A stretch of 27,331 nucleotides of DNA, taken from Pigoraptor vietnamica. Its lineage: Eukaryota; Opisthokonta; Filasterea. Within the stretch, counting starts at the first letter, position 1. Every line of letters begins with the position of its first letter. The notes under the pieces were generated by a model. The model saw only the letters and a program-made list of their open reading frames with translations, had not been told where the DNA came from and ran no database searches. The stretch spans positions 1-27,331 of the forward strand of contig CALSCQ010000070.1 in NCBI GenBank assembly GCA_943704525.1, given 5' to 3'. This document shows positions 5,235-22,718 of the stretch, piece after piece. The position numbers were made by a program, and so were the translations under genes.

Positions 5235-6715
5235 ATGGGGTCGTGCGGCTCAAAGCCGTCGGCAGTGGCGCCGGCGGACGTCGCGCCTGCCAAAACGACC
5301 GCGGCCGCACCTGCGCAGGAGAAGAAGGCGCCTGCCCAGCCCGCGCCCGCGCCCGCCGCGGCCCCTGCGCCCTCAGCACCGGCCAAGGCACCCGCGCCCG
5401 CGCCCGCGCCAGCGCCAGCGCCCGCCCCTGTCGCCACCGCTGCCCCACCCGCGGCACCTGCGCCGGCTGCAGCACCGGCCGCAGCACCGGCCCCGGCGGC
5501 GGACACGGCGCACCCCAATGGCGACGCGCACGCCCACCACCACCGCCCCGACCTGAAGCTGGCGATTGAACCCGTGAAGAAGGGTGTCTCGGTGACGGAC
5601 GCTGCGCCAGAAGTGCACGAGGCCGAGCAGCGAACGCCGCTGTCGGACTCTGATTCGGACTCGACGGACGGCGCGAACCTCGGTCGGCTCATGCCCAAGA
5701 CGCCCAACCCCGTCGACGACACGGAGCTGACCATGGGCGAGCTCAACCCCAAAGACAGCGGCATGCTCGAGCTGCGGCGGTCGTCCCTCGGCATCAAGTA
5801 CCGCAAGCTGAACCTCGAGTGGGCCTTTCCCCCGCTCATCCTGTGCGGCATCTCGGGCGGCGGCAAGCGCACGATCGCGCGCAAGCTCATCGCCGAGTTC
5901 CCGGACCAATTTATGTTTGCAGTGTCGCACACGACGCGGCCGCCGCGCGCAGGCGAAGTCGATGGCGTCGACTACCACTTTGTGAACGAGCACGAGATGA
6001 AGATGGGCATGCTCGGCGGGGACTTTGTCGAGAAGGTCGAGTTTTACGACCACACGTACGCGCTGAGCTTTGAGGCCGTGCGAAAAGTGGCCGTGGCCGG
6101 GAAGATGTGCGTCATTCCGCTCGAGTATGAGGTGAGGGTGATCAACAGCCGCGCGCGGTGTGTCTGTAGTGTCTGTGTGTGCGTGTGTGTGTGTGCTGCG
6201 TATTTGTGCATGTGCGTTGCACTCAGTGAGACAGTCGCGTGCGTGTGGGCACATGAGTGCGTGCGTGTAGGTATGGTGTGTGCGTGCGTGTGTATGTGTG
6301 TGTGTGTGTGTGTGTGTGCACACGGAGTGAACACGGCAGAGTCACTGACACGTGTGCTCGGCAGGGCGTCGTGCAAATGCGGCAATTTGAGGACCTCAAG
6401 GCCCTTAAGCCGCGCTACGTCCTCATCAAGCCGCCGTCGATGGCGACGCTCGAGACGCGCCTCAACCAGCGCGGCGACACGCAGGAGCAGATTGCCGAGA
6501 AGATGAGCAAGGCGCCCGAGTACGACGAGCACGAGCGCACGTCGGAGCTGTGGGACCTCGTCATTATCAACGATAAGATTGAGGTGGCGTACGTCAAGCT
6601 CAAGGAATTCCTCGCGCCGGACCTAGGGTGGACGGCGGAGCAGGTGGGCAAGCTCGAGGCCGTGCCCCTCGGGATGGACGACGACGAAGACGCCCCCGAC
6701 CTCGTCAGCAAGTGA
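5235..6715 (+). CDS. N-terminally acylated guanylate-kinase-domain protein, P-loop altered (possible pseudo-kinase)
   Basis: Two exons, 5235-6131 and 6365-6715, joined in phase 0, give 415 residues. The start reads MGSCGSKPS: Gly2 with Ser6 fits N-myristoylation and Cys4 could be palmitoylated, so membrane attachment is likely. Residues about 10-95 are a low-complexity Ala/Pro linker, followed by an acidic SDSDSDSTDG stretch. The GK domain runs from about 198 to 385. GMP-side residues are kept: TTRPPRAGE at 233-241, Tyr247, Glu266, Tyr275. The P-loop reads GISGGGKRT (205-213), so the Ser/Thr that normally follows Lys211 is Arg212. The YG[ST] motif is YAL (275-277), and the DxD-type strand reads PLEYE. 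Authentic kinases phosphorylate GMP; MAGUK GK domains instead bind proteins. A scaffold role is therefore possible, but activity is untested. The intron 6132-6364 is GT-rich. Confidence 0.88.
6132..6364 (+). repeat. GT-rich intron of the GK-like gene
   Basis: This GT-AG intron begins gtgaggg and ends ctcggcag. Most of it is gtgtgc/gtgcgt low-complexity sequence, including an almost pure (GT)n run at about 6290-6319. Confidence 0.8.
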
Positions 6716-6936: not shown

Positions 6937-8309
6937 TTATGTGTGCCCCAGCAGCTTGCACGCCTCGACGCAGAAGCGGTGCACGGGGAAACCGACGACA
7001 TTGAAGTAGCAGCCCTCGATGCCCGCGACGAGTGCGCCGCCCCTGCCTTGGATGCCGTACGTGGGACGGAGTTAAGGCGTCGCACTGAGAGACAACAACG
7101 AGTGTGACAGTGTAAACGAGGCGTCGCACTGAGAGAGAGCAACGAGTGTGACAGTGTAAACGAGGCGTCGCACTGAGAGAACAGCAACGAGTGTGACAGT
7201 GTAAACGAGGCGTCGCACTGAGAGACAGCAACGAGACAGTAAGAACATCGCGTTCAGGGAGAGGGCAGGGGTGAGACCGTCTGCGCATTGGGAGTGAGGG
7301 CGAGTGCTGTGCGAAACAGGCGTCTGAGTGTGAGGATTGCGCGTGGTGTGCCGTGCGGAAGCGCCTCGGGAGCGGATATGACCCGGCCTTGTCCATGGGC
7401 TCGCCAGTCGAAACATATTCGCTGATGACGTCCTCAGGGAGCGTTGCAAAGCGCACGCGTGTCTGCTCCGTGAACTGCGACACGGCATACTCGCCCGCTG
7501 CGGCACGTGACCCTGAGCAATTGCACAACGCCACCAAACAAAAGTGGCACAAACAACCGAGTAGAGCGCACACACCTCGCTCACTGTAGCGAAGCAGCAC
7601 AACCCCGGTGACGACCTCGTGCACTCGCCCGGACAGAGCCCGCAGCATGTCGCGAGCGTGACCGGCGTCCCGCGGTTTCTCGAGAATGACGCCATCCAAG
7701 ACCTGATGCTGCAGCCGTCAACATGCCGTTTGCCGCGAACACAAGCCAAAGACCCTAACCCCCGGGGAAAAAAAGGCAAGACCGCGACACGACGAGTGGA
7801 ACGTGACACAACAGCCGTGACACTGGCGCAGACCCACAACAACCGTGACACTGGCGCAGACCGTGACACTGGCGCAGACCCACAACAACCGTTACACTGG
7901 CGCAGACCCACAACAACCGTGACACTGGCGCAGACCCACAACAACCGTGTCGGCGGCAACGACAAGTCCGGGCCGCGGGCTCTGCTCCTCCAGCCGGCGC
8001 GCGACCTCCACTGCCTTGTGGCGTGCTGTGGCGGCGACATACGCGGCGGGGGATTCGAAGAGGGCCTTGTCCAGGTCCTCGGCAAAGGACGACCCGCACA
8101 CCGAAAACTCAACGCCCTGTAGGGATACCCGTCAGTCGTGGGACACGGGCCTTGTCCGCTGCGCAAGCCGCGCGTGTGCTCAACACAGCTGTTTGCGGGC
8201 GCAGGGGTCCATCACTTGCCAGCGTAGAAAGCAGTTCCTTGCGCCGCGGGGACGTACTCGCGAGCACGACCCGCAGCGCATTGAGGCGCGGTAACAATGG
8301 GCCGATCAT
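6937..8309 (-). CDS. Maf/ASMTL-N-type nucleoside triphosphate pyrophosphatase
   Basis: Five exons, 8220-8309, 7940-8116, 7576-7702, 7380-7512 and 6937-7060, give exactly 216 residues plus TAA, the usual Maf length. Family motifs appear in order: VVLASTSPRRKELL (14-27, nucleotide-binding Ser/Arg/Lys), ADTVVVLDGVILEKP (85-99, with catalytic-type Asp86), LSGRVHEVVTGVVLL, and GEPMDKAGSYGIQG followed by NVVGFPVHRFC. The SSFAEDLDKA and VVGFP forms are closer to the eukaryotic ASMTL N-terminal domain than to bacterial Maf. Known members hydrolyse non-canonical or modified NTPs (house-cleaning); the substrate here is inferred. The introns are unusually varied: GC-AG (8117-8219), GT-AG (7703-7939), GT-AG (7513-7575) and AT-AC (7061-7379). 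The start at 8309 gives the normal Maf N-terminus; an in-frame ATG lies further upstream. The gene is divergent from its neighbour at 8479. Confidence 0.9.
7061..7379 (-). other. AT-AC intron with minor (U12-type) spliceosome signals
   Basis: The sense strand begins ATATCC at 7379 (U12 donor consensus ATATCCTT) and ends CCCAC at 7061. An exact CCTTAAC branch-site match lies at 7077-7071, with its adenosines 11-12 nt from the 3' end; U12 introns place this at about 10-15. Removing it joins TC|G and restores the invariant Maf block DKAGSYGIQG. The only nearby CAG acceptor (after ctctcag) would bring in an in-frame TAA. Confidence 0.85.
7074..7230. repeat. Minisatellite inside the AT-AC intron (about 44-46 bp unit, about 3.7 copies)
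   Basis: The unit contains gcgtcgcactgagaga, then caacgagtgtgacagtg, then taaacgag. Copies differ by a few bases (gacaac, gagagc, aacagc, gacagc), and the last is truncated. On the sense strand the array stops right at the CCTTAAC branch site. Confidence 0.9.
7816..7945. repeat. 28-bp minisatellite that begins at a Maf splice donor
   Basis: The sense-strand unit starts GTTGTTGTGGGTCTG and continues cgccagtgtcacg (28 bp). There are four full copies and one truncated copy (about 18 bp). The exon-proximal copy contains the last two codons of exon 2 (Val88, Val89) and the donor at 7939, so every full copy reproduces the same exon/donor context. Confidence 0.9.
8117..8219 (-). other. GC-AG intron of the Maf-like gene
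   Basis: The intron begins GCAAGT at 8219, the standard GC-AG donor, and ends ccctacag at 8117. Splicing joins LLSTL to GVEFSV, matching the continuous LL..LG..F.V block of Maf proteins. Confidence 0.8.
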
Positions 8310-16200: not shown

Positions 16201-17258
16201 ACACCCATCGACCAAGAACAGACGGCGAGGGAACAGAGGGCGGCGTGAGACAGGCAGACACCACGTGACCCACGTCGTGCTCAATGAACGTGTAGAGGGC
16301 GTAGGAAAAGCCGCAGACAGCTGCGCCGGGTCCGTGTCAGCGCCGGGTGATCGACGTAACAGCACGCACAAGGCACGAGACCCACCGCACCCCGCAAGCA
16401 TGAGGACAAAGCGAAAGGCATCGCGGTAAAACTTGAACTTGCTTGGTCGCGGAAAGAGAATCGAGAGGACAAGGTTTCCCTTGGACGTCGCAAACCCTGC
16501 AATTCCATACGCAGTGAGCTGAGGCGACGCAAACCACATGGCCATAAGGGCAAGGCGCGGACAGAGGACAGGGAAACAAGCCGCCACTGACACACTTACA
16601 GGCATCAATAAACACGCAACGCGCGTGCGCGCACACACACACAGACAGCCTCTCCCTTAAATCGCAGCCTTTCTCTCACACTCCCTCACTCAGGCACGGT
16701 CACGCGCAGACACACGACACAAACAAGAGGGAAACGCACAAAAACCGACACAGGCGCACAGACACACAGACGCATAGACACACAGACGCACAGACACACA
16801 GGCGCACAGACACACAGGCGCACAGACACACAGGCGCACAGACACACAGACGCACACGCCCGAAACAAGGGAGAGAACGTAGGGACGCCTTTGGATAGGC
16901 ACATGAAACATGTTGCCACCACAGCAGGCAGCGCACGAACCTGTTCGGATGACAAGCGCGCGAACACGGTCGACGCCGTGGCCGCGCGTCTGGATCACAC
17001 GGGTGCCGGAGAACAGCGTGCTCTTCCTGTCCAGCTCGTCGGCGTACAGACGATCGCCGCCGTCGGAACTCAGCGCCACCTTGCTCACCGGCACGCTCTC
17101 ACCTGCACAATATCGGAATGCTCGTGAGCAGACAGTTGCGGCCGCGGCGTAATATAACTGCGATACCTGGACACGCACGCGCACACGCACACTCGCACAC
17201 ATACACATGCACACACGCACATACTCACACACACACACACGCACATGCACCCGCATAT

Positions 17259-17337
<79 letters not shown>

Positions 17338-20393: not shown

Positions 20394-20750
20394 TGTGTGT
20401 GCGTGTGTGTGTGCGTGCGTGTGAGTGTGTGTGAGTGTGTGTGTGTGGAGTGGTGTGTGTGTGCGTGCGTGTGTGTGTGTGTGTGTATGTGTGTGTCTGT
20501 GTGTCTGTGCGTACGCGTGCGCTTGCGTGTGTCAGTAGTAGTGTCATTAGTGCCAGTGCCTGTGTGCCGGTGTGTGTGCGTGTATGTATGTGTGTGCGTG
20601 GGCACGTGTGTATGCCGGGGTGCATGTGTGTATGTCTGGTTGCCGGCGTGTGTATGACAGTGTGTGTTGGTGCGTTGTGCGTGCCTGTGTGCGCTCGCAA
20701 GCATGTGTCGTGAATGTACACCGTGTGTGCTGGCGTGTCTACATGTCGCG
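20394..20750. repeat. GT-rich low-complexity block
   Basis: More than 300 bp of interrupted gtgtgc/gtgtgt repeats with scattered single-base variation. This irregularity separates it from the pure (CA)n arrays elsewhere. Similar but sparser sequence continues to about 20960. Confidence 0.85.
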
Positions 20751-21447: not shown

Positions 21448-21497
<50 letters not shown>

Positions 21498-21648
21498 GGA
21501 TGCACACCTATGCACAAGCACGCACACGTCACGCACACACACACACACATACACTGAAACACACACACACCACACACACACACATACACTGCAACACACA
21601 CACCACACACACACCACACACACACACACATACACTGCAACACACTGC

Positions 21649-21686
<38 letters not shown>

Positions 21687-21690
21687 ACAC
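21443..21690. repeat. CA-rich compound microsatellite
   Basis: Several (CA)n runs (about 21446-21489, 21534-21548, 21655-21684) are separated by short spacers such as accacac and the repeated motif acatacactgcaacac or acatacactgaaacac, which recurs three times. Confidence 0.85.
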
Positions 21691-22718
21691 GCACCTGCGC
21701 ACGCACACAGATGCACGCACACACTACGGACGGTACTCACACAGACACACAGACTGTGTACAGGGAAACTATCACCACACGAAAACAAGAACGCCACTGT
21801 TACTTTACTTTGCGCTCGCCCGCAACCCTCGCGCCTCTGACGCACATCGATGCACGCGCACACGCAAACGATGGATGCAATGCTCAACAGCGGGGCCCAA
21901 TGTACGCACCAAATTCCACAGATTCCAATTGGGATGTGTCACGTGACAAGGCAGTGTGCTCACTTACTATAGTGCCTCTGCTGTGCATCCACGTACCACG
22001 GCAAATGAAATTGGTTCACGACTCGGATTGCTTCCGTCACGCACCGCGTCGCACCCTCTATCAAACTCAGTGTTCGCCTTCAGTTGGGCAGCCCGGCAAG
22101 TCGGCGGCGAGTGGTTCGCTGCCTGCCATCAGTTTCCCCGCCTTAGCTGGGGCTCTGACGGCATGCCGACCTGATTTGGACCCTCGAGACCGCTTCTGTT
22201 CACGAAGTGTTTGTTAAATAGAACCTTTTACTCTGAACACATTTGGCGCATTCATGACATCCGGCCCCTGCTGAGGTACAGGATTTCAAGTATGTATTAC
22301 TCAGTCGGCTTACCACCGAATTGTGCCGTGTACGTATCACTGATATGGGACTGAGGACGGCTTGGAGATGTTCGTATATATGCTCAGGGTAGTTTTACGC
22401 CTCGAAGAAGAGGGCCTTGCAGCCATGGGGAAGGGCTTCTGGACTGTGTCCCATCCCGTGGTCGAGGGTTCAAGGCCCCAAGGTTGGCAGTTTAATTGGG
22501 TTTTTTCGTCAACGGTTGGCATCGCGCGCTCGGCATTCCTCATTCTTCGCATAGCAGCACTTGTCCCAGGCAGCCAATAGAGTTGCTCAAATGGGGCGAA
22601 TTCCTTGCAGATTGGAATTCGGCCTCATAACGCACTGCCGTTGGTCAAAACCACAGCAGGGTGCTCCAAACGTTCCAAGCTCCATGCATTCTGCGCATAC
22701 CGAAGAGTTGGGTGTGTG

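Follow-up and report, generated by a model that had tools for sequence, protein, structure and literature searches.

Which splicing machinery removes the fourth intron of a Maf-like gene in Pigoraptor vietnamica, and how might this machinery recognize the 5' end of the intron? In animals, plants, and some protists, minor introns have AT-AC or GT-AG ends, an RTATCC start, and a CCTTRAC sequence near the 3' end; they lie in conserved housekeeping genes, and their spliceosome contains U12, U4atac, U6atac, and SNRNP25. All of these features are also found in this genome. However, positions +7/+8 of the donor are most often GC here rather than TT, and positions 12-14 of U6atac are GCC rather than AAG. 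Judged from sequence, Maf intron 4 is very probably a genuine minor AT-AC intron that is removed by a retained, but altered, minor spliceosome.

The Maf gene

The gene lies on the minus strand of the window (the whole 27,331-nt stretch that was analysed), where its exons span positions 8309-6937. Exon 1 (8220..8309) is followed by intron 1 (8117..8219), which has GC-AG ends (GCAAGT..CAG). Exon 2 (7943..8116), whose donor placement is uncertain by 3 nt, precedes intron 2 (7703..7942), a GT-AG intron that holds 28-bp tandem repeats, and exon 3 (7576..7702) precedes intron 3 (7513..7575), which is also GT-AG. The last two nucleotides of exon 4 (7380..7512) are the start of the Ser codon after MDKAG. 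This codon is interrupted by intron 4 (7061..7379), a phase 2, 319-nt AT-AC intron of the U12 type with boundaries placed by coding homology, and exon 5 (6937..7060) ends in the stop codon TAA at 6937-6939. Since intron 1 is GC-AG, this one small gene contains GC-AG, GT-AG, and AT-AC introns.

The spliced product has 215 residues and an unbroken Maf domain. The Pfam Maf profile (PF02545) matches it over its full length (profile positions 1-181 of 187, residues 13-205) at 198.1 bits, and human ASMTL-Maf (2p5x) matches at 186.5 bits. When the DNA is read without splicing, the profile is broken at intron 4 into pieces at 7370-7690 and 6970-7059. The predicted product is a Maf-family, ASMTL-type nucleotide pyrophosphatase.

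Repeated sequences are present within and around the gene. The 28-bp tandem repeat of intron 2 (7807-7949, minus strand) reaches the exon 2 donor and copies the GGTTGTTGTGGGTC of this donor, so that similar donors recur. GT/CA microsatellite tracts are frequent in the window (6276-6318, 17171-17333, 20394-20509, and 21449-21694).

Splice signals and boundaries of Maf intron 4

On the minus strand, intron 4 begins with ATATCCGCTC (the 5' splice site, 7370..7379) and ends with CGCCTTAACTCCGTCCCAC, the final AC being the 3' splice site (7061..7062). The preliminary description had taken this interval of the Maf gene for an AT-AC, U12-type intron, based on an ATATCC donor, a CCTTAAC branch site 11-12 nt before the AC end, and the restoration of DKAGSYGIQG when the interval is removed. 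Donor positions +1 to +6 are indeed ATATCC (7379-7374) and match the RTATCC start of U12-type introns. The textbook match ends there, however: +7/+8 is GC rather than the TT of RTATCCTT, and the intron is therefore classed as a variant minor intron rather than one with a standard donor. CCTTAAC is present as described, at 7071..7077 of the same strand (GCCTTAAC), and it is complementary to the UAAGG of the host's own U12. Ten bases follow it up to the end of the intron, the last two being AC, and its two A's are placed 11 and 12 nt away from the final base of the intron, within the distance of about 10-20 nt typical of U12-type branch sites. The preceding base is G, as opposed to the pyrimidine of the consensus (YCCTTRAC). 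CCTTAAC occurs once in the window when both strands are searched (0.74 copies expected), and ATATCC occurs four times (2.08 expected). Neither motif is remarkable singly; what is remarkable is that both sit exactly at the ends fixed by homology.

Excision of 7379-7061 joins the exons in one frame as MDKAGS|YGIQG, and across the junction MDKAGSYGIQG aligns without a gap to the MDKAGGYGIQA of 2p5x. Alternative boundaries were sought among stop-free, frame-compatible pairs with GT-AG, GC-AG, AT-AC, AT-AG, or GT-AC ends, with the donor moved from -45 to +60 and the acceptor from -60 to +45. Among the 24 pairs that this yields, only AT-AC at 7379/7061 keeps the full ungapped block, so the AT-AC ends are fixed by coding homology and the interval given in the preliminary description stands. 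The runner-up is a GT-AC pair that uses the identical 3' end; its product is one residue shorter (DKAG|YGIQG).

These boundaries bear on the idea of a U2-type intron, which could have GT-AG or GC-AG termini at different positions or could keep its AT-AC ends and be spliced by the major spliceosome. In the same gene, introns 1-3 are GC-AG or GT-AG, and AT-AC introns of the U2 type are known, reportedly from the work of Wu and Krainer in 1997. Against this idea, DKAGxYGIQ is lost with every GT-AG or GC-AG pair that lies within ~60 nt of the ends. SYGIQGR is missing from the product of the nearest GT-AG pair, and none of the GC-AG pairs in this range retains YGIQG. The ATATCC donor, together with a perfect copy of the U12 branch motif 11-12 nt before the intron end, also argues against major-spliceosome splicing, and a U2-type intron is highly improbable.

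About half of intron 4 is taken up by a 44-bp tandem array of 3.6 copies (7075..7235, minus strand), which overlaps the beginning of the branch site. Its last copy reads GACGCCTTAAC, where the other copies read GACGCCTCGTTTAC and contain no CCTTAAC. This difference suggests that the array grew beside the branch site without copying it.

Components of the minor spliceosome

The assembly to which the window belongs (32.5 Mb, 1395 contigs) was searched for minor-spliceosome snRNAs and proteins, with 14 genomes, all from prokaryotes, as controls. Rfam models find one match each over the cut-off for U12 (73.8 bits, cut-off 53), U6atac (81.4 bits, cut-off 33), and U4atac (64.0 bits, cut-off 53); for U6atac, the scoring covered 46 of 652 first-look candidates, so that what follows concerns one U6atac in one assembly. 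None of the control genomes has a match over the Rfam cut-off, and weaker matches (E limit 10) are present in 7 of them for U12, 11 for U6atac, and 11 for U4atac. A second U6atac match in the host (L006) is weak (21.6 bits), lacks the GAGAGAAGG stretch, and was set aside.

The branch-pairing region of U12, GAGUAAGGAAAAU, is the same as the consensus, and U12 is predicted to form a duplex of -7.1 kcal/mol with UUCCUUGAC and of -5.1 kcal/mol with the Maf branch site. U6atac keeps the GAGAGAAGG stretch, and its predicted duplex with the host U4atac has an energy of -47.4 kcal/mol; its 5' splice site-pairing box is altered. The DNA upstream of the three genes has a common TCCCAYAAG sequence, which ends 57 nt before the start of U6atac (L005), 57 nt before U4atac (L010), and 62 nt before U12 (L004). 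This common element argues that the three genes are part of a single genome and are transcribed by a single system. It is likely to be an snRNA promoter element and, as such, could provide a handle for finding U11.

Among the U11/U12-specific proteins, the search covered the SNRNP25 (U11-25K) family. PF18036 matches adjacent stretches of C821 at 45.9 and 33.8 bits, the second of which contains one TGA, and has no match in any of the 14 prokaryotic controls. For U11 snRNA, there is no Rfam match among the 39 scored of 1226 first-look candidates, a number too small to show absence. The pattern AGCGG..RATTTTTKG has 41 matches compared with 19 for its control; 16 of the 41 were readable, none of these being convincing by eye. 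Thus, the genome does not lack all components of the minor spliceosome: U12, U6atac, and U4atac each score above the Rfam gathering value and SNRNP25 is present, in support of the minor-spliceosome reading put forward in the preliminary description. That description did not anticipate the donor's difference from RTATCCTTT, the repeated occurrence of this difference elsewhere in the genome, or the corresponding change in U6atac.

GC donors across the genome

RTATCCGCTC has 102 matches in the genome compared with 43 for the reversed pattern. Follow-up of 60 of the 102 sites, Maf included, finds CCTTRAC at a distance of 40-390 nt downstream in 15, upstream in 2, and on the opposite strand in 1. 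Since the other 45 of the 60 have no such downstream motif, which is in line with the 43 reversed-pattern matches, a match to RTATCCGCTC does not by itself prove an intron. When the donor and the branch site are held at a fixed intron spacing, TATCCGC..TTCCTTRAC is found 23 times (control 1), and TATCCTT..TTCCTTRAC is found 0 times in the genome (control 0). From base composition, TATCCTT should be about threefold rarer than TATCCGC, a bias that does not account for 23 versus 0.

A set chosen blind to the donor gives a similar picture. It consists of 43 branch-like sites, 23 of TTCCTTAAC and 20 of the 44 distinct TTCCTTGACY sites, for which the DNA 40-380 nt upstream was inspected. All 18 occurrences of TATCCNN are on the sense strand, with none on the opposite strand; the NN of these 18 is GC in 9, CC in 3, AC in 2, and TT, TC, GA, and CG in 1 each. 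GC accounts for 2 of 9 TATCCNN near the TTCCTTAAC sites versus 7 of 9 near the TTCCTTGACY sites, the former share probably being lower because fewer of the TTCCTTAAC sites are introns. In the 20 TTCCTTGACY loci, TATCCGC is the commonest 7-mer that does not resemble a microsatellite (7 loci, L107 and L108 among them). The shift is not absolute, as CC, AC, and perhaps TT donors occur; the sole TT candidate (L105) lies just outside the fixed-spacing frame and has no protein support. In all, at least a few tens of putative minor-intron donors are seen, and GC is, as far as such candidates indicate, the commonest +7/+8 choice of this genome.

Several of the candidate introns interrupt recognizable genes. 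Besides Maf, nine genes have protein matches that run across the spliced junction, and four more have weaker matches. Six of the nine were chosen by the RTATCCGCTC donor: CUL3 (L093, AT-AC), sedlin/TRAPPC2 (L056, AT-AC), the PIH1 CS domain (L069, AT-AC) and TFIIIC-delta (L040, GT-AG), both of which have Pfam matches over the junction, and AP-1 mu (L067, GT-AG) and exosome CSL4 (L085, GT-AG), both of which match PDB sequences across the junction and fall below the Pfam cut-off in the short piece. The other three were chosen by the branch site, blind to the donor. These are IMP3 (L104, GTATCCGCTT..AG), LSG1 (L114, ATATCCGCCC..AC), which matches a PDB sequence across the junction and has no Pfam family match over it, and urocanase (L110, GTATCCGCCC..AG), with a PDB sequence match and a Pfam score below the cut-off in the short piece.

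Two of the weaker cases also come from the branch-site selection: MCMBP (L115, ATATCCGCAC..AC), at 35.5 bits, is over the cut-off and crosses the junction by 2-3 residues, and SGF29 (L106, ATATCCCCTC..AC, donor ATATCCCC) reaches 21.6 bits (cut-off 23.8) and an E of 0.38 against PDB. CLAMP (L059), chosen by its donor, reaches 21.5 bits (cut-off 22.7) and crosses the junction by 2-3 residues. In eIF3K (L079) the protein is restored at 54.4 bits; the branch-like site is poor and lies ~46 nt from the AG, so this intron may be of the U2 type. Consequently, among the 15 RTATCCGCTC sites that CCTTRAC follows, protein support is present for 7 (Maf included), weak for CLAMP, and absent for 7 (L038, L051, L055, L072, L087, L090, and L091). 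A Pfam scan of the L038, L072, L090, L091, L101, and L105 junctions, which left out L014/L051, L032, L055, L087, L107, and L108, found no relevant family. The motif pair at L100 sits in apparent coding sequence and was rejected.

Could Maf intron 4 simply be a U12-type AT-AC intron of the ordinary kind, its donor just slightly off the consensus, removed by a standard minor spliceosome with unchanged machinery? Its ATATCC and CCTTAAC fit the textbook, U12, U4atac, and U6atac are present, and 9 of the 18 donor-blind TATCCNN are not GC. However, GC recurs, with 23 versus 0 for TT at the fixed spacing and 9 of 18 versus 1 of 18 in the donor-blind set, and U6atac differs at exactly the positions that pair with this part of the donor. 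An unchanged machinery is thus quite improbable.

U6atac and its pairing with the donor

The host U6atac reads GAGCCGAGAGA where the Rfam consensus is GAAAGGAGAGA, so that AA at positions 12/13 is replaced by GC. In the Rfam alignment the host sequence is UGAGCCGAGAGAAGG and the consensus UGAAAGGAGAGAAGG, positions 12-14 being GCC in the host and AAG in the consensus. In the textbook register, A12-A13 of U6atac face U+8-U+7 of the donor, an arrangement that the predicted duplex reproduces. In the same register, G12 and C13 of the host U6atac are complementary to C+8 and G+7 of the GC donor, and A11 and G10 can pair with U+9 and C+10; positions +7 to +10 of the Maf donor (GCTC) are thereby complementary to G10-A11-G12-C13. 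C14 lies opposite the conserved C+6, a mismatch that makes the compensation incomplete.

Predicted duplex energies follow this complementarity. The GC donor pairs with the host's own box at -6.0 kcal/mol and with the Rfam-consensus box at -3.4 kcal/mol, and the textbook donor pairs with the own box at -4.1 kcal/mol and with the consensus box at -8.2 kcal/mol. Thus, each box is predicted to prefer its own kind of donor, the pair of own box and GC donor being weaker than that of consensus box and textbook donor.

A high G+C content could by itself have carried +7/+8 toward GC, with an independent change in U6atac and no functional co-evolution. The window is ~62% G+C, CC and AC are also found at +7/+8, and C14 is unpaired with C+6, all of which would fit such drift. 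Drift should, however, spread over GG, GC, CG, and CC, and these are seen in 0, 9, 1, and 3 of the 18. In addition, U6atac has the exact complement at both positions. The Rfam consensus of this box is AAAGG, and a double change that arose independently is improbable as the source of such a match. Composition drift is accordingly a rather unlikely explanation, and the donor and U6atac look like a case of natural co-evolution.

The branch site, which is YCCTTRAC in many of the introns and GCCTTAAC in Maf, still pairs with U12, whose recognition sequence is unchanged. At the other end, the putative minor introns of the host most often start with RTATCCGC (ATATCCGC) rather than RTATCCTT (ATATCCTT), and the GCC at positions 12-14 of U6atac, where the consensus has AAG, would read the GC donor through G12/C13 together with A11/G10. 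U11 is described as pairing with the donor except for the first three bases, which are read by U11-48K, after which U6atac replaces U11 (PMC3584512). Since U11 and then U6atac both read the donor, a change at +7/+8 should need both to follow. The U6atac half of this change is observed; the U11 half is a prediction. On balance, we favor the view that this lineage rewrote its recognition of the minor 5' splice site, with U6atac and, by prediction, U11 moving along with the donors from RTATCCTT to RTATCCGC, and with U12 and the branch site left untouched.

Relation to other minor splicing systems

Donor changes in U12-type introns were reportedly rescued by complementary changes in the pairing box of U6atac in experiments by Incorvaia and Padgett in 1998. 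Unlike these laboratory suppressor pairs, the paired changes seen here are apparently natural and lie at +7/+8; if the donor and U6atac moved together, they would be a natural counterpart of the suppressor experiments. Among protists, Physarum polycephalum, in which minor splicing is said to be transformed (a 2021 study by Larue, Elias and Roy), offers a likeness in that its minor-intron motifs reportedly depart from the animal/plant consensus. More than 20,000 minor introns have been reported in Physarum (PMC8329584), compared with 23 in one spacing frame here, where the change is a covariation of donor and U6atac.

Acanthamoeba castellanii is another protist with extra conservation right after the minor-intron donor, in its case a C-rich region. 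As far as the available part of that report goes, however, its donor consensus is RTATCCTTT, RTATCCTT is required for effective sites, and no U6atac change is mentioned (PMC2846911). Cyanophora possibly has a transformed minor machinery (PMC10639083), and the U12 donor has been described as highly conserved (PMC3584512). In the open-licence PMC literature, as represented by titles and the starts of abstracts, there is no report of TATCCGC minor donors or of a naturally altered U6atac box.

Detectors that require RTATCCTT, a rule like that in the Acanthamoeba report (PMC2846911), would miss many of the putative minor introns here and could label the lineage as minor-intron-poor. If the proposed change is real, the minor splicing code exists here in a natural, orthogonal version. 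A joint shift of donor and U6atac would make it possible to ask how splice sites can change as a set while the cell survives, in what order the changes came, whether U11 or U6atac led, and what weight the +6 mismatch carries.

The genes that contain the putative minor introns of this genome include TRAPPC2/sedlin (L056), CUL3 (L093), and CSL4 (L085). Among the minor-intron splicing diseases tabulated in PMC8199999, human TRAPPC2 is listed with an aberrant 5' splice site.
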